From positions 1 to 20,469 of IMG/VR virus record IMGVR_UViG_3300046822_000107: 20,469 nucleotides of DNA; one strand, 5' to 3'. The first letter of the stretch is position 1. The number at the start of each line of letters is the position of its first letter. The notes below the pieces were generated by a model. That model searched no databases. It was given only the letters and a program-made list of their open reading frames with translations, and was not told the DNA's origin. This document shows, piece by piece, positions 680-17,957 of this stretch. Source of the stretch: a virus. A program made the position numbers and the translations under genes.

Positions 680-2149
680 ATGGCGACGATCAACTACAAG
701 CCTGCGCCGACCGTCAAGGCGTTCATCAAGCACTTCCGGCCGGGCGAGTTGTTCGCCGACTGGATCATGGGACCCGTGGGTTCCGGCAAGACCACGGGCA
801 TCTTCATGAAGCTCGTGGTGATGTCGCTGCTGCAAAAGCCATCGCCGGTCGACGGTAAGCGCCGCGTGCGCGCCGTGGTCGTACGCAACACCATGCCACA
901 GCTCGTGGACACGACGATCGCGTCGTGGAACATGTGGTTTCGCGACGGGGAAGCGGGGTCATGGCACGCCACCGACAAGCGCTTCGTGCTCCGGTTCGCC
1001 GACGTCGAGTGCGAAGTGCTGTTCCGTGCGCTCGATACCGCCGACGACATCGCACGCGTGCTGTCGCTCGAAACGACGTTCGTCATCTTGGACGAATTCG
1101 TGCAGATACCGAAAGCGATCGTCGACGCGCTCGATGCGCGCTGCGGCCGCTACCCGAGCGAGCGTGACGGGGGTGCGACGAATTGGGGCATGTGGGGTGC
1201 GTCGAACCCGGGCAATGAAGATGACTGGTGGCACGCTGCACTCGACCAAGCCGAGCCCGCCAGCGCGACGGCACAGGAGCTGATCGCGCGGCACACCGAC
1301 CGCGTGCTGGCGGGCAAGGCACCCGAGAGCAACTGGATGTTTTTTCTGCAGCCGTCCGGATTCTCCGAAGGCGCGGAGAACGTCGAGAATTTGCCGGGCA
1401 AACGTGCGTATTACACGTCACTCGCCAAGGACAAGGCCGAGCACTGGGTCAAGCAGTTCATTGAAGTGGAGTGGGGCTATTCGATCGCCGGCACGCCGGT
1501 CATCGCGACATTCAAGCCCGACATTCACATCGCCAAAGGGCCGATACGGTTTAACCCACACCTGAAGCTGGTCGGCGGGCTCGACCCGGGGATGAATTGC
1601 GCGATGATTTTCGGACAGGTGGACAACTTCGGCCGACTGTCTGTGTTGAGCGAGCTGGTCACACGCGACTACGGCGCGAAACGATTCATCAGCGACAAGT
1701 TGAAACCGCACCTGAAAAATACGTACGAGAACGCCGATTTCGTTGTCTCCCCCGATCCGGCATCGAATCAACGTGCGCAGACCGACGAGCGCACTGTTGC
1801 GGACATCTTCCGCAAGGATTTCAAGGTACGCGTGGCGACGAGCAACAACCAGTTGCCGGGGCGCATCGACGCCATCGAGCACTACACCACGCGCATCACG
1901 GAGAACGGTGCTGCGCTGCAGATCGACCCACGCTGTCGAACACTGATTCGGGCACTGCGCTCGGGATGGCGCTACAATGCCACCAATAAAGGTGACATTA
2001 AAGACCTACCGATGAAGAACCAGTATTCGCACCCGGGAGATGCCTTTTCATACCTCTGCCTATACTTTTTCGTCGACAGCGAGCGCACGGCCAAGCAAAA
2101 GAACCGACCACCACTTCCCATGTTCAGGAATAGCTACAACGTGCGATAG
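680..2149 (+). CDS. Terminase large subunit (ATPase/nuclease)
   Basis: This is the motor that translocates DNA into the prohead and cuts the concatemer. The 489-residue protein has an N-terminal ATPase with Walker A GPVGSGKTT (residues 31-39), Walker B VILDE (135-139) and a likely coupling motif GASNP (173-177). The C-terminal part looks like an RNase H-like nuclease: GLDPG (Asp302), VSPDP (Asp359) and HPGDAF (Asp454) are spaced like its metal-binding acidic residues. Length is normal for the family. The ATG at 680 is the only start that keeps a full N-terminus before Walker A, although no clear SD precedes it; translation may depend on coupling to the small subunit 23 bases upstream. The portal gene follows after 8 bases. 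Confidence 0.93.
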   Translation: MATINYKPAPTVKAFIKHFRPGELFADWIMGPVGSGKTTGIFMKLVVMSLLQKPSPVDGKRRVRAVVVRNTMPQLVDTTIASWNMWFRDGEAGSWHATDKRFVLRFADVECEVLFRALDTADDIARVLSLETTFVILDEFVQIPKAIVDALDARCGRYPSERDGGATNWGMWGASNPGNEDDWWHAALDQAEPASATAQELIARHTDRVLAGKAPESNWMFFLQPSGFSEGAENVENLPGKRAYYTSLAKDKAEHWVKQFIEVEWGYSIAGTPVIATFKPDIHIAKGPIRFNPHLKLVGGLDPGMNCAMIFGQVDNFGRLSVLSELVTRDYGAKRFISDKLKPHLKNTYENADFVVSPDPASNQRAQTDERTVADIFRKDFKVRVATSNNQLPGRIDAIEHYTTRITENGAALQIDPRCRTLIRALRSGWRYNATNKGDIKDLPMKNQYSHPGDAFSYLCLYFFVDSERTAKQKNRPPLPMFRNSYNVR

Positions 2150-2157
2150 GAACCGCC

Positions 2158-4395
2158 ATGGATCAGCTCCAGCCCGGGGTTAATTTGACGCACGCGATGC
2201 CGCCGAACCCTCCGGTGATGACGTCAAATTCATCGAACATTTCCGGTTCCAGCTACACCGGCACACCGAACATGGACAAGCTGCGCGCACTGGGCGCGAA
2301 GCTCTCCACCGATTTCAAAACATACGAGAACCATCGCAAGCTGCAGGAGCTGAAATGGCAGCGCAATCTGATGCAGTTTCTCGGCGAGTACGACAACGAC
2401 GTCGCCAAGACACTCGATGCTAATCGCAGCAAAGCCTATCCGCGCCTGACGCGTGTGAAGGTCATCTCGATGCTGTCGCGTTTGATGAATCTGCTGTTCC
2501 CGGTGAATGAGAAAAACTGGGGGCTCGCGGCGTCGCCGGTACCGAATCTGTCGATGGAAGACATGATGACGGTGCTGCAACAGGCGCAAACAGGTGCGCA
2601 GCAAGCAGGGGGCCAGCTCTCCGACACCGCGATCGAGGCTGCGGTGCGGGCGTTCGCGATGGAGCGGGCGAAGAATCTGGAGCGCGAGGTCGAGGATCAG
2701 CTGGCCGAAGTCGGTGGCAACCGGAATCTCGACTACGTAGCACTCTGTCGCAAGGTGCTGTTCAGCGGAATTTTGTACGGCGCCGGGGTGTTGAAGGGTC
2801 CGTTCGTACGTCAGCAGCTGCAGCGCACGTGGGCGCGCGGCATCGCAGGTGCGTACGTGCCGCAGCAGATGATGGCGTATCGCCCGCAACTGCAATTCGT
2901 GCCGATCTGGGATTACTACCCGGATATGACGGCGAAGCACATGCACCAGATGGACGGCCAGTTTCAGCGCATGGTGCTGTCGAAATCGCAGCTCCGCGCG
3001 CTCGCGGACAGACCGGACTTTTTCGGCGAGGAAGTGCAGGAATACCTGTCGCAGAATCCGAAAGGGAACTGGAAAGAGCGCACGCACGAGACGATGCTGC
3101 GCACCATCGGCACGCAAAGCAATGTCAACGTGCTATCGAGCACGAAGTACGAAGTGATCATCTGGGACGGTTTCGTGTCGGCGCAGGATCTGCGCAGTGC
3201 TGGCATCGAAGTTCCGGATGAGATGACCAACGATCTGGTCGACGCGTCGGTGTGGACGCTGGACAACCGCGTCATCAAGTGCCTGATGAGCCCATGGGCC
3301 GAGCTGGAACCCGACGAGCGCGTGCAGATGTACCACCAGTTTATTTTTGAAGAAGACGATTCGAGCATCATCGGCAACGGGCTGCCGAACATCATGCGCG
3401 ATTCGCAGATGAACATGGCGGCAGCGACTCGCATGCTGATGGACAACGCGTCGGTCGTGTGCGGTCCGAATCTCGAAATCAACACTGCGTTGCTACGTAC
3501 CGATCAGGACATCAAAGGCATTCAGCCGTACAAGATCTGGTACCGCGAAGACGACAACATGTCGACGGCGCAGTTTCCGTCCGTGCGCGAGGTGAAATTT
3601 GATTCGCACATTAAAGAGCTGCAAGGCGTGGTTGAAATGTGCCAAGCGTTTGCCGATGCGGAGACGTTCGTTAATCCGGCCACCGGGGGTGACATGCAGA
3701 AGGGGCCGAGTGAACCGTTCCGCACGGCTGCCGGCGCCTCGATGATCCAAGGACAAGCCGCGTTGCCGTTCAAGGATGTCGTGCGCAACTACGACACGTT
3801 CACCATGTCGGTGATCAATTCGATTGTGCTGTTCAATAAGCATTTCAATCCGAATCGCGAGGTGCAGGGCGACTTCACTGTCATCGCACGCGGTTCGTCG
3901 TCGCTGATTGCGAAAGAAGTGCGCGGCATGGCGCTCGACATGCTGGCGCAGACGGTGCAGCCGGAAGAGCGCAAGTACATCGACTGGTACAAGATGGTGA
4001 AGGAACGTCTCGGTGTGCGCGACGTCGACATCTCCGAAGTGTTGCTCGATGCCGATGCAGCCAAGGCTGCCGAGCAGGCCGAGTCGGATAAACAGGCCGC
4101 GGATGAGCAGTCGATGAAGTCGTTGATGGCCGCGGAAGTGCGCAAACTCCTTGCGGATGCCACCAAATCGCTCACCGCAGCGGACTCGAATTCAGCGTCG
4201 GCGGAAGCGAAATCGGCGCAAGCGCAGGTGTCCACTTATGAGGCAGTGCTGCGCGGGCTCGAATCGGGTGTCACGCCGAAGGATGTGCACGCTGCGCACC
4301 AAGGCGCCGACGTTCCACCCGCGATCGCAGCGGGTTTCCGGCGCACCAGCGGCAAGGATAAGCCGGTCACGAACGGTACCGGGACGACGCAATGA
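2158..4395 (+). CDS. Portal protein (head-tail connector)
   Basis: This is the portal, the ring at one capsid vertex through which DNA passes and on which the neck is built. At 745 residues it is in the size range of portals from short-tailed phages. Residues 1-38 are Pro/Ser/Asn-rich and probably disordered. Residues 40-130 (KLSTDFKTYENHRKLQELKW, then RSKAYPRLTRVKVISMLSRL) resemble the N-terminal helical part of such portals, and a long mixed wing/stem region follows. Residues of roughly 620-710 are Ala-, Glu- and Lys-rich helix, fitting a C-terminal crown or barrel. The start is well supported by an AGGAA SD (TAGGAACCGCC before the ATG). The call rests on size, position after the large terminase and overall pattern; no single catalytic motif exists for this family. 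Confidence 0.85.
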   Translation: MDQLQPGVNLTHAMPPNPPVMTSNSSNISGSSYTGTPNMDKLRALGAKLSTDFKTYENHRKLQELKWQRNLMQFLGEYDNDVAKTLDANRSKAYPRLTRVKVISMLSRLMNLLFPVNEKNWGLAASPVPNLSMEDMMTVLQQAQTGAQQAGGQLSDTAIEAAVRAFAMERAKNLEREVEDQLAEVGGNRNLDYVALCRKVLFSGILYGAGVLKGPFVRQQLQRTWARGIAGAYVPQQMMAYRPQLQFVPIWDYYPDMTAKHMHQMDGQFQRMVLSKSQLRALADRPDFFGEEVQEYLSQNPKGNWKERTHETMLRTIGTQSNVNVLSSTKYEVIIWDGFVSAQDLRSAGIEVPDEMTNDLVDASVWTLDNRVIKCLMSPWAELEPDERVQMYHQFIFEEDDSSIIGNGLPNIMRDSQMNMAAATRMLMDNASVVCGPNLEINTALLRTDQDIKGIQPYKIWYREDDNMSTAQFPSVREVKFDSHIKELQGVVEMCQAFADAETFVNPATGGDMQKGPSEPFRTAAGASMIQGQAALPFKDVVRNYDTFTMSVINSIVLFNKHFNPNREVQGDFTVIARGSSSLIAKEVRGMALDMLAQTVQPEERKYIDWYKMVKERLGVRDVDISEVLLDADAAKAAEQAESDKQAADEQSMKSLMAAEVRKLLADATKSLTAADSNSASAEAKSAQAQVSTYEAVLRGLESGVTPKDVHAAHQGADVPPAIAAGFRRTSGKDKPVTNGTGTTQ

Positions 4396-4631
4396 AAGAC
4401 GACCCACGCAAGCAGGAGACGGAGTGCCGCGCACGGATCTATGGTGCGCGCGACAGTAGCACGACGGCGGATTTGATCGCGATGCTGACGTCAGTGATCG
4501 AGCGGGCGAAGGTATCGCTGCTCACCGCGGATGCCGCGGAGGTCGTACGGCTACAAGGGAAGTGCGCTGGGTTCCGGGAGGTCCTTAAATGGCTTACTGA
4601 GCCTGTTAACCTACCTGTTGACAAAGTGTAA
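4392..4631 (+). CDS. Small helical protein coupled to portal
   Basis: This 79-residue protein starts on an ATGA overlap with the portal stop codon, so it is probably translated by ribosomes finishing the portal. The sequence is helical and charged: TADLIAMLTSVIERAKVSLL and a second segment TADAAEVVRLQGKCAGFREVLKWL, ending in a Pro-containing tail. The two-helix pattern with an A-D-A-A-E-V-V-R-L-Q-G core resembles small proteins I recall beside phage portals, which may dimerise, but no function is known to me. Its last codons overlap the -35 element of the promoter driving the next gene. There is no signal peptide or membrane segment. Confidence 0.7.
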   Translation: MKDDPRKQETECRARIYGARDSSTTADLIAMLTSVIERAKVSLLTADAAEVVRLQGKCAGFREVLKWLTEPVNLPVDKV

Positions 4632-4646
4632 TGCGTAGCTTATAAG
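4618..4646 (+). promoter_or_regulatory. Sigma70-type promoter ahead of the capsid block
   Basis: A perfect -35 box TTGACA (4618-4623) is followed by a 17-base spacer and a -10 box TATAAG (4641-4646), five of six matches to TATAAT. The -10 lies inside a perfect 10-base palindrome GCTTATAAGC (4638-4647), which could serve as an operator; that is inference. Normal spacing puts the transcription start near 4652-4654, immediately before the scaffold ATG at 4655, so the transcript would have almost no leader. It is the best promoter I can see in the window. Confidence 0.7.
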
Positions 4647-4654
4647 CCACAAGC

Positions 4655-5605
4655 ATGACCACTCAAACCACTACATCTGGTGTTCCGGCTGATGAATTTG
4701 ACCTAGTTTTTGACCAAATTACAAAGCTGGACGCGAAAGGCAATGAGCCGGATGTAGCGCCACCGGCAGCCGCTGCACCCCCGGCAGCTGCTGCCGCACC
4801 GGAAGCGAAAGCGCCCGAAACACCCGAGCCGCCGACGCCCCCGGAAGCGAAAGCACCCGAGACGCCTGAGCCGCCCGCGGCCGCGCCACCGGAGTCGCCA
4901 CCGCCGACTGAAACCGAGCTTGCTGCGCAGCGCATCGCTGAGCTGGAAGCTGAACTCGCTGCGGCCAAGAAACCTGCTGCTGCGCCTGCGCCCGAACCAG
5001 AGGGTGGCAAGCCTGCTGCAGAAGCACCACCTGCTGCGCCGCCCGAGATTCAGTGGTACCAGCCGACGCCGGACGAAGTGGCAGTGATGACCGAGCACGC
5101 CAAGGAATGGCCCGAGATCGCGAAAGCGGAAGAGATCCGGACCAAGGCCGCGGTGTTCAACGCGGTGCAGTACGTGTTCTCGGAAATCGCCGCCAAATAC
5201 GGCCCAGTGCTCGATCGCTTCAAGCTCACGGCCGACGCGATCGAGGAACAGCTCGCGCTGCAGGACATTCGCGGTGCGCATGGAGACTACGACGCGGTGC
5301 GCGACAAGGTTGCGAGCTGGGTCGAGACGCTTCCTGTTGCGTTTAGGGCCGGTGCGCAGGAGATCATGAAGAGCGGCACGCCGGACGAAGTGTCGTCTCT
5401 CATCACCGAATTCAAGAAGCAAACGGCGGCTCCCGGAGCGCCGGCAGCACCAGCAGCAAAAGATAAGACCGAACTCTCAGTCGCGGCCAAAAAAGCGGTG
5501 GGCAACTTGAGTGTGGTCGATTCCAAACGTACTTCTGTCCCAGCTGCTGCACCCGACAAGAACGACTTCGAGGGTGCGTGGAATGAAGCATCGGCAGCCG
5601 GATAG
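4655..5605 (+). CDS. Capsid scaffolding protein
   Basis: This is the probable scaffold, which guides capsid assembly and is then lost from the head. The 316-residue protein has a Pro/Ala/Glu-rich low-complexity stretch (residues 31-140) containing a 14-residue tandem repeat and a helical AAQRIAELEAELAAAKKPAA segment near 90-110. An acidic and helical body spans about 140-265. The C-terminal tail contains KKAVGNLSVVDSKRTSVPAA and then an acidic DKNDFEGAW segment. A basic helix or linker followed by a short acidic end is typical of scaffolds that precede N4 gp56-like capsid genes. An in-frame TAA at 4643-4645 blocks any upstream start, so ATG 4655 is the first possible start. It has no SD, consistent with the promoter placed directly before it. 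Confidence 0.8.
   Translation: MTTQTTTSGVPADEFDLVFDQITKLDAKGNEPDVAPPAAAAPPAAAAAPEAKAPETPEPPTPPEAKAPETPEPPAAAPPESPPPTETELAAQRIAELEAELAAAKKPAAAPAPEPEGGKPAAEAPPAAPPEIQWYQPTPDEVAVMTEHAKEWPEIAKAEEIRTKAAVFNAVQYVFSEIAAKYGPVLDRFKLTADAIEEQLALQDIRGAHGDYDAVRDKVASWVETLPVAFRAGAQEIMKSGTPDEVSSLITEFKKQTAAPGAPAAPAAKDKTELSVAAKKAVGNLSVVDSKRTSVPAAAPDKNDFEGAWNEASAAG
4799..4882 (+). repeat. 42-base tandem repeat (2 copies) in the scaffold gene
   Basis: Copies at 4799-4840 and 4841-4882 encode PEAKAPETPEPPTP and PEAKAPETPEPPAA. They differ mainly at synonymous third positions (for example GCGCCC versus GCACCC), so the duplication is not brand new. It extends the disordered linker of the scaffold by 14 residues. 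Confidence 0.9.
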
Positions 5606-5993: not shown

Positions 5994-6009
5994 AAGGAAC
6001 CATCATGGC
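5994..6009 (+). promoter_or_regulatory. Translation-initiation block of the capsid gene (copy 1)
   Basis: AAGGAACCATCATGGC contains a strong SD (AAGGA), a six-base spacer and the ATG of the major capsid gene. The same 16 bases recur at 7061-7076 at the start of the next gene, suggesting matched high translation of two abundant virion proteins. Confidence 0.85.
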
Positions 6010-7042
6010 CAATATCGTCACGTACGGCGACATCTCGCCGCGTACCGCTGCGTACGTCGTCAAGGAACTGCTCAAGCGCGCCATGCCTTACATGGTGATC
6101 GAGCGCTTCGGTCAGAGCTATCCGATTCCGCTGAACAGCACGCGCACTGCGAAGTTTCGTCGTTACTATCTGCAAGGTGCGACGGGCTCCGCAGGTGACG
6201 GCAATCCAGCGAATGCGTTTTTCACACCGCTGTCGCTGACGCCGCTGATCGAAGGTGTTACGCCTGCCGGTCTCAAGCTGGGGTTCACCGATTACACGGT
6301 GCAACTCAACCAGTTCGGTGATTACATTCAGATCACCGACGTGGTTGAAGATACCCACGAAGACCCGGTGCTGTCGGAAGCCACACAAATTCTGTCGGAA
6401 TCGGCAGCGCAGACGTTCGAAGCCGTCCGGTACAACATTCTTCGTGCCGGGACGAACGTGTTCTGGGCGAATGGCGGTGTGCGCACCGCAGTCAACACGG
6501 CGCCCACGCTGGCGCTGCAGCGTCAGATCACCACCGCGCTGACCCGCCAGAATGCGAAGCCGCTGACGTCGATCGTGTCGTCGGACACAAGGTTCCGCAC
6601 GGAACCGGTCGAAGCTGCCTTCATCTGCCTCGCGCATCCGGATTCGGAAACCGACATCCGCGGTATGGCCGGTTTTATTCCGACCAAGCAGTACGGCACG
6701 GTGACGCCGTTCGAAAACGAGATTGGCGCGGTCGAGCGCGTGCGCTATCTCATCTCCACGGTGTTTACGCCGTTCCCGGATGCCGGTGGCGCCAAGGGCG
6801 CGATGCGTTCCACGAGCGGTGTCAATGCCGACGTTTACCCGCTGCTCTACATCGCGCGGGATGCGTACGGGATCGTTCCGCTGCGTGGCCGTGATTCGCT
6901 GACGCCGATGGTCGTCAATCCGAAGCCTGCTGCGGGCGATCCGCTCGGGCAGCGTGGCTCGGTCGGCTGGAAAGCGTGGCAGGCGGCAATCATCCTGCAG
7001 GATGCGTTCATGGTTCGCGCAGAAGTCGCGGCGACCGCGTAA
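6005..7042 (+). CDS. Major capsid protein, N4 gp56-like family
   Basis: This is the shell protein of the head. The 345-residue sequence has the pattern of the N4-gp56 major capsid family (HK97-type fold). It has an early helical arm (TAAYVVKELLKRAMPYMVIE), then RFGQSYPIPLN (34-44) leading to K-F-R-R-Y, then PLIEGVTPAG (80-89) and VQLNQFGDYIQITDV (99-113). Later come an H-P-D turn (211-213) and EIGAVERVRYLIST (239-252), which corresponds to the family's typical G-x-x-x-x-V-R-F/Y block. It follows a scaffold gene and is preceded by one of the best SDs in the window, as expected for the most abundant protein. The family name comes from recognising this motif order, not from a database search. 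Confidence 0.88.
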   Translation: MANIVTYGDISPRTAAYVVKELLKRAMPYMVIERFGQSYPIPLNSTRTAKFRRYYLQGATGSAGDGNPANAFFTPLSLTPLIEGVTPAGLKLGFTDYTVQLNQFGDYIQITDVVEDTHEDPVLSEATQILSESAAQTFEAVRYNILRAGTNVFWANGGVRTAVNTAPTLALQRQITTALTRQNAKPLTSIVSSDTRFRTEPVEAAFICLAHPDSETDIRGMAGFIPTKQYGTVTPFENEIGAVERVRYLISTVFTPFPDAGGAKGAMRSTSGVNADVYPLLYIARDAYGIVPLRGRDSLTPMVVNPKPAAGDPLGQRGSVGWKAWQAAIILQDAFMVRAEVAATA

Positions 7043-10775: not shown

Positions 10776-13700
10776 GTGCCTACTCCTGACGACTACCCGC
10801 AGCTGCAACCGCTTCCGTTCACAGCGTCTCCGGAAACGACGGCGTTCGTGCGCCGGGCGATGGCGAATATGCCGCCCCCTCCGCAGCCTGTAGCACCTGT
10901 ACCACCAACGCGACCCAATAGTTTGTTGACCGACATCGGTCACGGCTTCGCTGGTGGTGCGATGGTGGATCTGCCCGAGATGATCGGGCATGCCGCACAA
11001 GCGTTCACGCCGGATGACAGCGCCGTTAATCGCCTCGGTGCGTCGATGGTCAAGTTCGGCAAGGAGCGTGAGGAGCTGCCTCAATATCAAACGACTGGTG
11101 CGTTTGGTGCAGGGGCGAGATTTGTCGTGCCTGCGTTGGGGGGATTGGCTGCGACAGCTGCTGCGGCTCCAGTCGTGGGGACCACTGCTGCAGGAGCGTT
11201 GAGCACCGCAGCGCTTGCTGCGCTCTTCGGTGGTTCGACTTATCAGGACATCAAGGAACGGGGGCTGGCCGCAGGAACCGATCCAGATGTCGTGCATGCG
11301 CAGGCCGTCAAGGGTGGCCTTGTGCAAGGTATTGGGCAAGGGCTTGCGCAGATGGTCGGCGGTCGCGTTTTGGCTGGAGCGGGTGGCGCACTGGTCAATA
11401 AAGTTATTGCGAAGGGCGGCGTGGACAACGCCATTCAGTCCTTCACCAATCCGGGTTTTTTGAAGCCGTTCGGTAAGACGATGCTTGAGATGGCTGGTGT
11501 GCAGCTGCCACTGCAGGCAGGCACGTCTGCCGCGATGAACGAGATTGAAGAGGGTGCAGGCATCAACACCGGACAGACGTCGTGGGAAGCCGCCAAGGCC
11601 AGTCTCGCACCCACTGCCGCGATGACGATGCTGCTCTCGCCAGTTGGCGCGTGGGGCGTTCGTGCCAGCAACAAAGTAAAGGCGCGAACTGCAGAACTGG
11701 TTTCCGGTACAGATCCAACGGCGACACAGGAACAACGCAAGGTTGCGCTTGCAGCGATGGCGAAAGAAATGCGCAAGACGGCGCCGCTGCAGGATGTTAC
11801 CGAGTGGCAGCAGCAAGCGGAGTTGGCGATTCTTGACGACAAGCCTGTCGGAATGAAGGCTGACTTCAAGTACACCCCCGATGCGGAGCCTACACCACCG
11901 CTCGCGCTGCCCGGGCCGCGGACTGCATTGCCCAGCGCGGTTCCGCTAGAACAGGCTGGTGGAACTGCAGAGCAAGCCGCCGATGAGAACGCGGCACGGA
12001 TTCAAGCTGCGCGCGATGCGGAAGAAGCACGACAGGCTGGATTGCGTACAGCGCCAGCAGAGGAAGTACCCCCGGGCGGTGAGCCGCCTGCTGAACCACC
12101 GGGTGGCGCTGGCCTCGGCGGCGTGTCACCGATGGAGGAGTCGGCCGCTGCGGCACGTGCGCGTACGCCAAAGGACAAAATCGCTGCGCAAATTGGCGCA
12201 CAGATAGCGCTGCAAGGTGAGCCCACTGCACGCGAGATCCCACCGCGGCAGACGCTACTCGAACGTGTGCCGCGTGCGCCTGAGTCGGCGCAGTTCATGG
12301 AGCTGCCGCAGGAAGCCACCAAGCAGGAACAGGTCAACGATCTGAAAAAGAATTTTCTGCCGACTGCACCGAAGGATTTGATCGCACGGTTGATTGGGCC
12401 GTTGGAGGAGATGCCGGCGAAGATCAAGCAGTTGTGGACGGAGAAGGGTGGCGAGACTTCGGATGCGACGTACGTCAAGCATCTCGGTGATCTGTACAAA
12501 CGGATCACGGGTGAAGAGATCAATGCGGAAGGAATGAAAGATGAAGGCGCCGCTCGTAACGAGCCCAGTGAAGTTGCCCCCGAAGAGCGTGCACGGACCG
12601 AACCCGAACCAGCCCCCGTTCAAGCTGAGCCCGAAGCTGCCCCCCGTCCTGTCGAAGTGGCTCAAGCGCAAGGGGATGCCGGAACCGGGGGCGAAGCTCG
12701 CGCAGCTGCGCAAGAACCTGCGCTGACGAAGGAAGCGAAAGCCAAAGTGACGAGAGCGGCAAAGGCCGCAAAGATCGCAGAAGCTGCGCAAGCTGAACAA
12801 GCGCGTGAGGAAACACGACACGAACCACCGACCGCAGCGGAAGGCGCGGCAGCGCTTGCGGAAGGTCAACCAGCGGACGAAGGGATTTTTCCCAGAGCAG
12901 GAGGTACCGATGCCGTTATTCCCGGGCAAGAAGAACGTGGGGGCGAACCTCAAGGCGGAACTGGCGGCGGGGAAGCCGCGGGGGCAGGCGCTGGCGATCG
13001 CACTGTCGGCGTCGCGGAGGGGGGCACCGAAGCCCAAGGCGGGGAGCAAAACGCACAAGTAAGGGAGCAGCGTCGTGCCGACAACCGGCGCTTTCGTGCG
13101 CACGGTGATTTGGCGGCATACGACGCCAAAACGCAGGCGTTGATTGCTGAGGCCAATGCACTGGAAAAGAGAGATCCCGAGTCTCCTGATCTGAGAAGGA
13201 AGCGACTGGAGATCGGCCGGCGCATGAACGAAGGGCGCAAGGAGCTGCATCGTCGAGCGATCGATGCTAATGCCGAGGCCGATCGCGTCAGAGACAAGTG
13301 GAAAGAACCGGGATGGGATGCAGGCAACGCCCTGTATGCGATGCCGAACGCACTGAACGAAAACAATCATGCCGACACGTTGTCGTTCCTTGCGGCACGT
13401 GAGCTGCTTGGTGAAAAGTTGAGCGATGAAGAAAAGGCATTGCTCAGTAACCGCGGTATAGAAAAGAAAGGCACCCGTGCCAAGGAAGAAGCAGACCTCG
13501 CCATGAAGTCGTTGTCTGCTGATCAGAAAGCGCGCTGGCAGGCGCGAGTGGAGCGGATGGCGGCGTCGGCCAAACTCATGGACGAGATGGCCACCATTCG
13601 GGATGAAATCGAAAAGAAAGACAAGAAGCGAGAGGGCAGGACGGCACGCAATGTTCAGCAGGAAGCGGACGATCGGCTGGACGACGAGCAAAAACTGCAA

Positions 13701-16700
13701 GCGATCGACGAGAGCGTTAAGGGCTGGGTGAAAGTCACCAGCGAGTTGGGTACGCACTGGGTGGTGGAAGGGCACGAAAAGCAAGTGCTCGATGCGATGG
13801 CTGCAGCTGCCAATCGTGATGCGATCCAGAGCCGCGGATTGTCAGGGATCTCCGATGCCGCGCTGGGTGCCAAAGTGGCTTTGACGCCGCACGCTGGCGC
13901 CATCATGGAACACCTCGCCAAGACGCACAACAATCCGTTGATGCGCGTCGTGGCCAAGATGCTCGCCAAAGCCAATCCGAACGCCGAGATCGTCGAGATT
14001 CCGGGTGCTGCGTTCAATGGCGGTCGCTATGTGCCATCGAGCCACAGGATTGAAATCGGTCGCGGTGGCATGAACCCGATTACGTTGATGCATGAGACGG
14101 TGCACTCGCTCGCGCATGCAGCGATCTATCGCGCCATGGACAATCTCACTCGACCGTTCGCTGAACTGCACCCGCAAGAGCGAAAGGAAATGGAAGGGCT
14201 GCAGGTTATTCGCAATGCGATGGATGCGTTCGCCAAGGTAGCCGACTACAGCCGTGAGGATCATCGGCTGGCGTTGGATAACGAGCACGAATTTCTGGCC
14301 GAAGCTCTGAATAACCCGCACATTCAGGAAGCATTGGGTGGCCGGTCCGGCTGGTATGGACGAGTCGTGAATTGGGTGCGCTCGTTGTTCGGCAAGGATG
14401 CGATCAACCAGACGGATTTCGAAAAGCTGATGGACGTTACACCGTCGCTGTTCGGTAGTCCGAATCGCAGCCTTACGGAAGTGTTCAACAGCAACCTTAA
14501 TCGGGCCGAGAAGATTCCCGGTTCGCCGCCGCAGTTGATTGGGGAGACGAAGGCCGCGTTCTCCAAGGCCGCTGAGCTGATGTCACAGGCCCGCAAATTG
14601 GTGCCCTCGGATCTGGATCTGAAGGCGCTTGCCTTGTGGCTTAAGGGCACGACGGTCAACAATAAGCAGCACATGCTGCGTAATTATCGCGAGCGGGTGG
14701 TTCGAGAATTCCCGAAAGTGGCGCCCCTATTCGACCGGGTGATTGCTGCGCATGACGCTATTCAACGGGTGACCCAGAGTCGCAATGCCGGTACGCAGCA
14801 TTTGATGAATGCACCGGGAGAAGGAAACGATCAGGTACGCGAAGCGGCCAAGTTCGCACACGAGAATAAACAGCAGGCACGGGAGATGTTCGAACTGCAA
14901 CGTCGTGAACGTGACGCGGGGGTATTTTCCGGCGACACATGGAAGCAGGCTGAGGCACGTGGCGTTACCCGAGACATGTTCAACAGTCCGCTCGCTGTCG
15001 AAAACCGGACCAAGATGGCAGCCATGCGTGCGCGCGATCTCGCGCGTTTCGAAAAGGAATTTGCTGCAGCCAAAAACCTGAACCCAGCGCTTACCAAAGA
15101 CACGTGGAATGGCCCGCTTACGGCAACTCGTGTGTACGACCACATGGCTACCTATCATGAGCTGACGCTGCAGCGCACCGCCATGGAGCAGTTGGCAGCG
15201 ATGCGCAAGACGTGGGGTCTGAACACTGACCCGAGTCTTTACTGGAAGGCGCATACCTACGGTAAAGACAACCGGGCGATTACCGATCCGCGTGTACAGC
15301 TGCAGAATGTGAAGGCTGCCATTGCGAGATCGCGCGCTGCGACGGCTGCCGCAATAGAAAAAGCGGGCTTTGATCCGAAGTCCAAGTTTGGTCAGGACGT
15401 CACTTCCTATCGTGAAGCGTCTGAGTCGATGCTCAATGAAGCCAATCGACAGGCCAACGTTCCGTATTCACCGCGTACACGCCCGGGTGAATTTTTCCTG
15501 CACGCCGAGATTGCCGATAAGCCCGGACTCTACGAGCGTGTGCGTTCGATTGTGCGCCCTGAGTTTGATCCCAAAAATCCCAATGCTGGCGGTCTTGGTC
15601 GTGACATGGGACCCGAGCTGAAGGGCGGCAGCCGCACGATTCGCATGCACTTCGACAATGAGGGGCAGCTGAAATATGCGGAGCAGCGGCTGCAAGCGTT
15701 GCGCGATGAGGGAGCGTTTCACACCAAGGCGAAGGAGGGTTCGCCGAGTGAGGACACGTTTGCTTCGGGCACGGTCATTGGTGATGCCAAACCCCATGAG
15801 GGTGCTACTGCGGGCTGGGTGCGCGCGTTCGAGAAACGTATTGACGACAACCCGGACTGGGAGGGCGACGTCAAACAGCAAATGAAGCAGGAGGTGCGGC
15901 AGGCGTACATCAACAGTTTGACCGAGATGAATCCGCTCAAGGCACTAAAACATGCCGACAAATCGGCTGGTGCCAGCACTGACATGGTGCGCGGATATTC
16001 CGATCGTTTGCAGCGTGGTACCACCCAGCTGTCGGCTATTCGTGCCGCATCGCTTATGGGCGATGCGATGAATCAGCTTAACGGCGCGATGAAAGAGATC
16101 CAGAAACAGCCAGCAGCATTCACCGAGCACAAAAATAAACTCGCGGTGTTTGAGGCGGAAGCTAAACGTCGGGTCCAAGACACGCGGATTGCGGTCAATA
16201 CGCCGTTTCGGGATGCCATCCGTGCGATTGCAGCGCCGTTCCGACTGGCGCTGTCACCTGCGTATTTGATGATGACGGCGTACCAACCATGGCAGATGAC
16301 GCTGCCGTGGCTCGGTGGCAAGCACGGCTACGTCACAAGCGCGGCAACCATGGCACGCAACTACGGTGTCTCGCACGCCATGATGAGCGCCATGATCAAG
16401 GACGCGTATGAAAACAGTTCCGGTACGAGCAAATTCCAGAAGCTCGTTGATGCCGCTAATCCCGCGGCGTACTTCAGCAACATCAAGCGAGCAGATGGCA
16501 CGTATTTGTTTGATGGAGCGAAGCTGGAAGCGGTCAACCGGCTTGCGGAGTCTGGTCTGACTGCATTCGGTCAGTACAACCAGATCTGGCGTCCGCAAAC
16601 GACTGAGGGATTCGAGGCGGCGAAAGGTGGGCTGCAGCAAGCTAACCGTCTCGCGTCGCTGCTTCCACACTACGTCGAGATGTCGAATCGCATCGTGGCG

Positions 16701-17957
16701 TACCTGTCTGCACACGAGCTGTATCTCACCAAGGGCATCAAGTACGCGGAGGGGGCTACCAAGGCAGAGCGGGCGAAAGCGCGCGACGACATGATGAACG
16801 CCGCGTCGGCGGAACAAAAACGGGCGGCAGAGGAATACGCACTCGGCATGATCCGTGATACGGACGGTGATCACTCGCAAGGCAATATCGCGCGCATGTT
16901 CGGACGGCACGGCTTTATTGGCGGATCGACGCCATTGGTTGTCGGCTTCGGTCAGTACGATCTGCAGATGGTCGAGTCGATGATCCGCAGCATGGTTACA
17001 GCAGCGGGTAGGGGTGACATCAAGAACACAGGAGCCAAGGTCGCTGCGAAGCAACTGGCCGGCGTCGTCGCGATGACATCACTCATGGCCGGTACGCTGG
17101 GCGCACCGTTCATGGGACTCATGACCGGCCTGTGGAATCGTCTCGGTTCGATGTTTCAGGATGATGCCGACACGCCACCAGACTTCGAGAAAAGCTGGCG
17201 TGACGCGATGGAAGGAATTTTTGGTGAGAAGGGTGGCGAGATTGTGTCGCGAGGTCTGCCACATCTGCTCGACTTCGACATGAGCCAACGTTCGGGCTAT
17301 CAGGATCTGGCGCCGTTCACCAACTTCCTCACCGATCGGCAGAAGATCGACGACACGATCAAGACGCAGGCGATGAATTTTCTCGGCCCAGCCGTGGGCG
17401 TGGGTGTGGGGGTCGCCACAGGTTCAGCTGCTGCCATTCGTGGCAACTGGCCGCAAGCCATTGACGATGCGTTGCCAGCGTTTGCTCGCAATCTTTTCAA
17501 GGCGGGGCGTTTGGCGGCGTATGGGTATGAGCGCAAGAGTGATGGCAATGCGCCGATTCCGTTGCATGTGTCGACATGGAACGTGGTCATGCAGGCGGGT
17601 GGTTTTGGTTCGGCAGCAAAAGAAGAAGAAGGAGAGATGCAGAATTATTGGAACGTCAACCAAGCCATCATGCAGCAGCGGATTGCCAAGATTCGCAACA
17701 AGTGGCTGGTTGCGCAGGATCACGGTGATGCTGCTGGTGTGGGCGATGCAATGGAAGATCTTGTTCACATCGCTGAGGTACAGCCGCAGTACGCAGGTGC
17801 TCCTAGCTCGGTCGGACCAGCGTACAAGGCGCGACAGCAGGCGGTCGCGCTGGGTCAAATGACTGGTGGTGTAGGAGTGCACAAACGTGCCTTGCCGTTC
17901 TTTATGCAGTTTCAGGGCGCCAATCACTACCCTGAGCTGGCAGCACCGAACTACTGA
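10776..17957 (+). CDS. Giant internal/ejection protein with zinc-metallopeptidase motif
   Basis: This 2393-residue protein is probably packed in the head and delivered with the DNA. Start is GTG 10776 with a CAAGGT SD. Residues 1-50 are Pro-rich. Hydrophobic Ala/Gly-rich stretches lie near 107-153, 179-214 and 277-304. Low-complexity linkers occupy about 360-480 and 585-780. The zincin motif is HETVH (1106-1110), and Glu1172 or Glu1176 in EHEFLAEAL is the likely third zinc ligand, as in peptidase domains of large polyvalent phage proteins. RTRPGEFFL near 1568-1576 and RGYSDRLQRG near 1739-1748 recall later parts of such proteins. Near 1824-1865 and 2090-2125 are membrane-active-looking segments, followed by a block containing SRGLPHLLDFDMSQRSG. 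I saw no RNA-polymerase motif. The peptidase may act on host or virion proteins; its target is unknown. Two short frames are nested in the 585-780 linker. Confidence 0.8.
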   Translation: MPTPDDYPQLQPLPFTASPETTAFVRRAMANMPPPPQPVAPVPPTRPNSLLTDIGHGFAGGAMVDLPEMIGHAAQAFTPDDSAVNRLGASMVKFGKEREELPQYQTTGAFGAGARFVVPALGGLAATAAAAPVVGTTAAGALSTAALAALFGGSTYQDIKERGLAAGTDPDVVHAQAVKGGLVQGIGQGLAQMVGGRVLAGAGGALVNKVIAKGGVDNAIQSFTNPGFLKPFGKTMLEMAGVQLPLQAGTSAAMNEIEEGAGINTGQTSWEAAKASLAPTAAMTMLLSPVGAWGVRASNKVKARTAELVSGTDPTATQEQRKVALAAMAKEMRKTAPLQDVTEWQQQAELAILDDKPVGMKADFKYTPDAEPTPPLALPGPRTALPSAVPLEQAGGTAEQAADENAARIQAARDAEEARQAGLRTAPAEEVPPGGEPPAEPPGGAGLGGVSPMEESAAAARARTPKDKIAAQIGAQIALQGEPTAREIPPRQTLLERVPRAPESAQFMELPQEATKQEQVNDLKKNFLPTAPKDLIARLIGPLEEMPAKIKQLWTEKGGETSDATYVKHLGDLYKRITGEEINAEGMKDEGAARNEPSEVAPEERARTEPEPAPVQAEPEAAPRPVEVAQAQGDAGTGGEARAAAQEPALTKEAKAKVTRAAKAAKIAEAAQAEQAREETRHEPPTAAEGAAALAEGQPADEGIFPRAGGTDAVIPGQEERGGEPQGGTGGGEAAGAGAGDRTVGVAEGGTEAQGGEQNAQVREQRRADNRRFRAHGDLAAYDAKTQALIAEANALEKRDPESPDLRRKRLEIGRRMNEGRKELHRRAIDANAEADRVRDKWKEPGWDAGNALYAMPNALNENNHADTLSFLAARELLGEKLSDEEKALLSNRGIEKKGTRAKEEADLAMKSLSADQKARWQARVERMAASAKLMDEMATIRDEIEKKDKKREGRTARNVQQEADDRLDDEQKLQAIDESVKGWVKVTSELGTHWVVEGHEKQVLDAMAAAANRDAIQSRGLSGISDAALGAKVALTPHAGAIMEHLAKTHNNPLMRVVAKMLAKANPNAEIVEIPGAAFNGGRYVPSSHRIEIGRGGMNPITLMHETVHSLAHAAIYRAMDNLTRPFAELHPQERKEMEGLQVIRNAMDAFAKVADYSREDHRLALDNEHEFLAEALNNPHIQEALGGRSGWYGRVVNWVRSLFGKDAINQTDFEKLMDVTPSLFGSPNRSLTEVFNSNLNRAEKIPGSPPQLIGETKAAFSKAAELMSQARKLVPSDLDLKALALWLKGTTVNNKQHMLRNYRERVVREFPKVAPLFDRVIAAHDAIQRVTQSRNAGTQHLMNAPGEGNDQVREAAKFAHENKQQAREMFELQRRERDAGVFSGDTWKQAEARGVTRDMFNSPLAVENRTKMAAMRARDLARFEKEFAAAKNLNPALTKDTWNGPLTATRVYDHMATYHELTLQRTAMEQLAAMRKTWGLNTDPSLYWKAHTYGKDNRAITDPRVQLQNVKAAIARSRAATAAAIEKAGFDPKSKFGQDVTSYREASESMLNEANRQANVPYSPRTRPGEFFLHAEIADKPGLYERVRSIVRPEFDPKNPNAGGLGRDMGPELKGGSRTIRMHFDNEGQLKYAEQRLQALRDEGAFHTKAKEGSPSEDTFASGTVIGDAKPHEGATAGWVRAFEKRIDDNPDWEGDVKQQMKQEVRQAYINSLTEMNPLKALKHADKSAGASTDMVRGYSDRLQRGTTQLSAIRAASLMGDAMNQLNGAMKEIQKQPAAFTEHKNKLAVFEAEAKRRVQDTRIAVNTPFRDAIRAIAAPFRLALSPAYLMMTAYQPWQMTLPWLGGKHGYVTSAATMARNYGVSHAMMSAMIKDAYENSSGTSKFQKLVDAANPAAYFSNIKRADGTYLFDGAKLEAVNRLAESGLTAFGQYNQIWRPQTTEGFEAAKGGLQQANRLASLLPHYVEMSNRIVAYLSAHELYLTKGIKYAEGATKAERAKARDDMMNAASAEQKRAAEEYALGMIRDTDGDHSQGNIARMFGRHGFIGGSTPLVVGFGQYDLQMVESMIRSMVTAAGRGDIKNTGAKVAAKQLAGVVAMTSLMAGTLGAPFMGLMTGLWNRLGSMFQDDADTPPDFEKSWRDAMEGIFGEKGGEIVSRGLPHLLDFDMSQRSGYQDLAPFTNFLTDRQKIDDTIKTQAMNFLGPAVGVGVGVATGSAAAIRGNWPQAIDDALPAFARNLFKAGRLAAYGYERKSDGNAPIPLHVSTWNVVMQAGGFGSAAKEEEGEMQNYWNVNQAIMQQRIAKIRNKWLVAQDHGDAAGVGDAMEDLVHIAEVQPQYAGAPSSVGPAYKARQQAVALGQMTGGVGVHKRALPFFMQFQGANHYPELAAPNY
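12541..12726 (+). CDS. Nested alternative-frame ORF (61 aa), speculative
   Basis: This frame lies wholly inside the giant gene, shifted one base relative to it, opposite giant residues 589-651. The ATG at 12541 is preceded by GGAAGGA (12527-12533) at a 7-base spacing, a credible SD. The product is Pro/Lys-rich, strongly basic and without Cys: MKAPLVTSPVKLPPK at the start and K-W-L-K-R-K-G-M-P-E-P-G-A-K-L-A-Q-L-R-K-N-L-R at the end. Of 61 codons, 57 end in G or C, against 28 of 61 in the giant frame. However, this is partly forced, because the nested third position is the giant frame's first position, and Ala, Gly, Glu, Pro and Gln codons all begin with G or C. I recognise no family. It is listed because it shares register and neighbourhood with the better-supported nested gene downstream. 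Confidence 0.33.
   Translation: MKAPLVTSPVKLPPKSVHGPNPNQPPFKLSPKLPPVLSKWLKRKGMPEPGAKLAQLRKNLR
12899..12905 (+). promoter_or_regulatory. Perfect Shine-Dalgarno AGGAGGT inside the giant gene
   Basis: AGGAGGT is followed by four bases and then ATG 12910; from the last G of AGGAGG the spacing is five bases. It is the strongest ribosome-binding site I found in the window and serves no start in the giant gene's own frame. It sets the start of the nested gene and argues against the longer form that would begin at GTG 12805. Confidence 0.75.
12910..13062 (+). CDS. Nested gene: small basic phage protein with Q-A-x-A-I-A-L motif
   Basis: A complete 50-residue gene lies inside the giant gene in another frame, opposite giant residues 712-762. 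A perfect SD precedes its ATG. The product begins MPLFPGKKNVGANLKAEL and continues AAGKPRGQALAIALSASRRG, ending in a Lys-rich tail. From memory, this matches a class of short basic proteins in phage genomes with the pattern M-P-x-x-x-G-K-x-x...N-I-K-x-E-x-x-A-G-K-P-x-K-Q-A-I-A-I-A-L-x-x-A-R, close to what I know as DUF6496-like. Function is unknown; the charge suggests nucleic-acid or capsid-surface contact. In the giant frame the same DNA encodes only a Gly/Ala/Glu linker. SD, normal length and a family-like motif together make chance unlikely. Codon bias is not independent evidence because of the host frame's composition. Confidence 0.7.
   Translation: MPLFPGKKNVGANLKAELAAGKPRGQALAIALSASRRGAPKPKAGSKTHK

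Follow-up and report, generated by a model that had tools for sequence, protein, structure and literature searches.

The presumed capsid scaffold gene of this phage is probably preceded by a sigma70-type promoter for the host RNA polymerase, from which a second transcript would start at the scaffold ATG or within 0–3 nt of it and be translated in a leaderless or nearly leaderless mode. The whole stretch of DNA analysed, 20,469 bases in length, is referred to here as the window. The features that matter for this reading are the following.

680–2149, plus strand: terminase large subunit gene (PHROG 2, E = 2e-21)
2158–4395, plus strand: portal or head-tail connector gene (PHROG 332, E = 2e-24)
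4392–4631, plus strand: small ORF of 79 aa; the −35 element lies within its last codons
4618–4623, plus strand: −35 element TTGACA, 6/6 consensus, by direct reading
4624–4640, plus strand: spacer AAGTGTAATGCGTAGCT, 17 nt, unconserved, by direct reading and comparison
4641–4646, plus strand: −10 element TATAAG, with G at −7 and containing TAAG, by direct reading and comparison
4647–4654, plus strand: CCACAAGC, the 8 bases between the −10 element and the ATG, by direct reading
4652–4655, plus strand: predicted transcription start, from the spacing to the −10 element
4655–5605, plus strand: presumed capsid scaffold gene, 316 aa, ATG start, proposed from position and Ala/Pro/Glu-rich composition
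6005–7042, plus strand: major capsid protein gene, N4-gp56 family (TIGR04387, E = 4e-82)

The preliminary description had reported TTGACA, 17 bases, TATAAG and an ATG at 4655, and every letter and coordinate was correct on direct reading. The in-frame stop that it had placed upstream was also confirmed, with TAA at 4643–4645 sharing the frame of the ATG at 4655–4657. As for the claimed lack of a Shine–Dalgarno (SD) sequence, the sole complementarity is the 4-nt TAAG inside the −10 element, with a duplex energy of −0.7 kcal/mol, the weakest among the gene starts examined in the window; the scaffold start thus combines an AUG codon with the absence of an upstream SD, as expected of a leaderless mRNA. 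The window contains a single copy of the motif TTGACA-N16..18-TATAA, which did not appear in any of 100 dinucleotide-preserving shuffles. A standard promoter scan missed the site for the sole reason that it requires a T at position six of the −10 element.

The 316-aa ORF is presumed to encode the scaffold based on its composition and its position in the order portal, ORF, major capsid protein. Searches of PHROG, Pfam and NCBIfam gave no match for this protein or its relatives, and no homology to the scaffold annotated in Stenotrophomonas phage StenR_269 could be established. In StenR_269, an annotated homing endonuclease gene (L125:5526–5975) is found between the scaffold and capsid genes, a position occupied by a 117-aa ORF in the window. 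An Ala/Pro/Glu-rich low-complexity stretch close to the scaffold N terminus is encoded by repeated units of the GAAGCGAAAGC(A/G)CCCGA type (4795–4900). Further downstream, positions 10776–17957 encode a 2393-aa protein, which may belong to the tail or the virion interior, whose C-terminal residues 1673–2358 match the PLxRFG domain (NCBIfam NF032893, E = 2e-54) and for which no Pfam match was found. No known phage was matched when the promoter/scaffold region was used as a nucleotide query. Genome matches with related capsids were mostly from Alphaproteobacteria, but they were distant.

To assess the conservation of the site, about 90 related loci were collected by capsid, scaffold and portal searches. 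The promoter-bearing set comprised 26 distinct sequences, namely the window, 24 metagenomic relatives and Pseudomonas phage Rollin. All of them share the same layout at the homologous scaffold start: TTGAC(A/T), 17–18 nt, a TATAAG-like hexamer, 6–9 nt and ATG, the start codon in 26/26. The −35 element is TTGACA in 24 sites and TTGACT in 2, and the spacer measures 17 nt in 19 and 18 nt in 7. The −10 element is TATAAG in 18/26, the others being TAGAAC, TAGAAA, TACAAG, TATAAC, TCTAAT and TAGATA. The two hexamers have mean pairwise identities of 98% (−35) and 83% (−10), but the values are only 30% for the spacer, 28% for the 30 nt upstream and 36% for the segment from the −10 element to the ATG. 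In Rollin, the sole promoter-bearing isolate, listed on Pseudomonas aeruginosa and with a capsid identity of only 47%, the start of the presumed scaffold gene reads TTGACA-N17-TAGATA-N7-ATG. The frame of the −35 element relative to the upstream ORF varies, and in some cases the element lies beyond that ORF, so its conservation cannot be put down to coding. Random 60-nt windows of the same loci reached a score of 10/11 in 0.27% of cases; together with the shuffles and the conservation in 26 sequences, this rules out a chance motif.

The other 39 relatives lack the promoter, scoring at most 7/10, with no intermediates. On the capsid tree, the trait needs about 6 changes versus 18 with shuffled labels and is therefore clustered. 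A few losses inside the promoter clade are probable (L009, L024 and L032), each of these loci having an SD at the scaffold start. In five long relatives that were scanned, a consensus-like site abuts the start of a long ORF only at the scaffold gene, the one exception being a weaker match ahead of the G005 capsid gene. The near-zero distance between promoter and ATG, conserved amid flanks of near-chance identity, is the pattern expected under selection for a leaderless promoter, and it supports the leaderless reading made in the preliminary description.

Based on spacing, initiation at the scaffold ATG or up to 3 nt before it is the best prediction. In the window, a start at A4655 would give a leaderless mRNA, and a start at A4652 or G4653 a leader of 2–3 nt. 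Counting 6 nt between the −10 element and +1 yields leaders of 0–3 nt across the sites, and counting 7–8 nt yields zero in many of them. In 20 of the 26 sites, the stretch lying 5–9 nt past the −10 element has no purine ahead of the codon's G other than the A of the ATG. The ATG is preceded by a pyrimidine at all 26 scaffold starts, although this is also common at other starts.

The overlap of the −10 element with an SD-like sequence has to be weighed at this point. Most promoter-bearing relatives contain the 5-nt TAAGG inside the −10 element, at 6–8 nt from the ATG, which is ordinary SD spacing. It is plausible that TAAGG, which the preliminary description had not considered, serves as a usable SD for read-through RNA in most of these phages, the window retaining only TAAG, and the leaderless mode could thus be one of two modes of translation. 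In keeping with this, the promoter may have a dual use, in which TATAAGG also acts as the SD, the long transcript being SD-led and the short one leaderless, with the SD half decayed in the lineage of the window. We regard this as a serious possibility, at somewhat below even chances. However, the window lacks AAGG, as do no fewer than seven further phages with the promoter (L010, L028, L031, L034, L039, L040 and L041), and the SD part is therefore dispensable. The −10 elements without AAGG include TCTAAT (L010), TATAAC (L031), TAGAAC (L034 and L039), TAGAAA (L040 and L041) and TAGATA (Rollin). Since these members keep the −35 element, the spacing and a −10-like element, the constraint is promoter-like and not SD-like.

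It is very improbable that the site is a ribosome-binding sequence only, with a chance or inherited −35 element, no promoter, and a long operon RNA translated by coupling or from a weak SD. Such an explanation would account for the TAAG or TAAGG before the ATG and would fit the 79-aa ORF ending 23 nt upstream, but it leaves unexplained why TTGACA hardly varies, and stays 17/18 nt from TATAA, in 26 sequences with nearly randomised spacers and upstream regions, and why SD-less members have intact −35 and −10 elements. A pure SD reading is rejected in view of the conservation of −35 and −10 across a divergent spacer.

Most of the 39 promoterless relatives have an SD at the scaffold start. The mean SD energy there is −3.5 kcal/mol in promoter-bearing and −6.6 kcal/mol in promoterless phages (p = 1e-6 when counted by rows); with kinship controlled, the trade-off between SD and promoter was not significant (5 independent pairs, median p = 0.25). 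In the promoter-bearing phages, the capsid start is served by an SD (mean −6.5 kcal/mol) and lacks a promoter, and the capsid gene of the window has an ordinary TAAGGA (−6.1 kcal/mol). Scaffold starts are less structured at the 5′ end than capsid starts, with or without the promoter, and only the A/C content differs. Low 5′ structure was ruled out as a promoter-linked trait, as it is common to promoterless scaffold starts.

The window has a −35 element matching the consensus at 6/6 positions, as do 24 of the 26 sequences, all of which have a spacer of 17 or 18 nt. A at −11 is present in 25/26 sites, including the window. The T at −7, which is important for sigma70 promoters, is absent in 25/26 scaffold sites and replaced by G in the window, a deviation that the preliminary description had overlooked. 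It was compared among perfect TTGACA-N16-18-TANWW sites of 15 long records and Rollin. T at −7 was found in 0 of 14 distinct scaffold sequences versus 7 of 9 other sites (Fisher p = 1.5e-4). In Alphaproteobacteria, most sigma70 promoters lack the −7 T, and a dependence on CarD has been proposed (PMC8407463). Consequently, the missing T lowers, and does not exclude, membership in the sigma70 class; the site is called "sigma70-type" here and not a "consensus sigma70 promoter". For the same reason, the unaided promoter may be weak.

It is possible, though rather doubtful, that an altered polymerase or an activator reads the promoter, the activator being either a late factor of the phage or, as in Alphaproteobacteria, CarD, the missing −7 T reflecting that factor and the factor setting the timing. 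The contrast at −7 and the alphaproteobacterial precedent are consistent with this. Against it, the only promoter-bearing isolate is listed on Pseudomonas aeruginosa, the G at −7 may be inherited or may be the G of the SD, and a search of nine records for the sigma region 4 domain (PF04545) found no phage sigma factor. The likeness to the alphaproteobacterial promoters also has a limit, in that other consensus sites of these phages mostly keep the −7 T. No T7-type late promoter consensus was matched in the window at 3 mismatches; the search for a T7-type polymerase (PF00940) gave no match in any record, but its controls were silent as well, so this result does not speak against such a polymerase. 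The T4-type late promoter (TATAAATA without −35) was not matched at 1 mismatch, whereas the −35 element is conserved here.

Consensus sites outside the scaffold start were also observed. The nearest long relative, G001, has a second perfect promoter, TTGACA-N17-TATAAT, on the minus strand (G001:67355–67383, equal to L109:7355–7383); it has the −7 T, adjoins no long ORF start and is a candidate early or small-RNA promoter. TTGACA-N17/18-TATAAT sites are also found at G006:27832–27860 (in L115) and G007:33300–33329.

Based on the sigma70-type reading, we suggest the following scheme. Within the structural gene cluster, the host RNA polymerase would initiate a second transcript, and the scaffold would be translated from this leaderless or nearly leaderless mRNA. 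The capsid gene, with its normal SD, would be translated from the same RNA. The scaffold and capsid mRNA would thus be added on top of read-through from the terminase and portal genes, giving a higher dosage. No terminator-like site was found by a scan of the plus strand between portal and scaffold, so read-through is expected, and coupling to the 79-aa ORF, with its stop 23 nt before the ATG, could support translation of the read-through RNA. The promoter would presumably act late, and it may separate scaffold and capsid expression from that of terminase and portal. In G001 (68.7 kb), the nearest long relative, the terminase block has a weaker site, TTGACA-N16-TAAACT (1013–1040), some 280 nt ahead of its first ORF; terminase and portal would have their own promoter if this site is real. 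A more elaborate scheme, which we consider unlikely, is a promoter class dedicated to scaffold and capsid, with a perfect −35 element and a −10 element without the −7 T that stays quiet until an activator acts and doubles as the read-through SD, so that firing switches scaffold translation from SD-led to leaderless.

Phage T7 has extra promoters (phi9 and phi10) within its structural cluster, directly before scaffold gene 9 and capsid gene 10. They are read by T7's own RNA polymerase, and their leaders carry SDs. The present site resembles them as an additional promoter inside the structural cluster ahead of the scaffold and capsid genes, but it is of sigma70 type, abuts the ATG and has no T7-promoter match. 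Leaderless phage mRNAs have been described for the repressor genes cI of lambda and cI and cro of PY54 (PMC4488713), where, as predicted here, the promoter sets the start at an AUG without SD. Those are regulatory genes of temperate phages, whereas here a presumed structural gene is concerned and the arrangement recurs across a diverged phage group. In Sinorhizobium meliloti, mRNAs starting at the AUG occur naturally (PMC3616915).

Judging from sequence, the site is predicted to be an element of a known type, a sigma70-like internal promoter producing a leaderless mRNA, but its setting is new and it departs from the consensus at −7 in a conserved way. In a literature search of partial coverage, no precedent for a leaderless structural gene in a phage came up, and the leaderless mRNAs of phages described there were those of repressor genes. 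The conserved promoter can serve as an annotation marker for the scaffold start, and the difference in −7 T between the scaffold sites and other promoter-like sites in these genomes lends itself to a direct test. If the leaderless reading is true, these phages would provide a natural system for studying why a high-demand phage gene is translated without an SD and for asking whether late infection favours leaderless translation.
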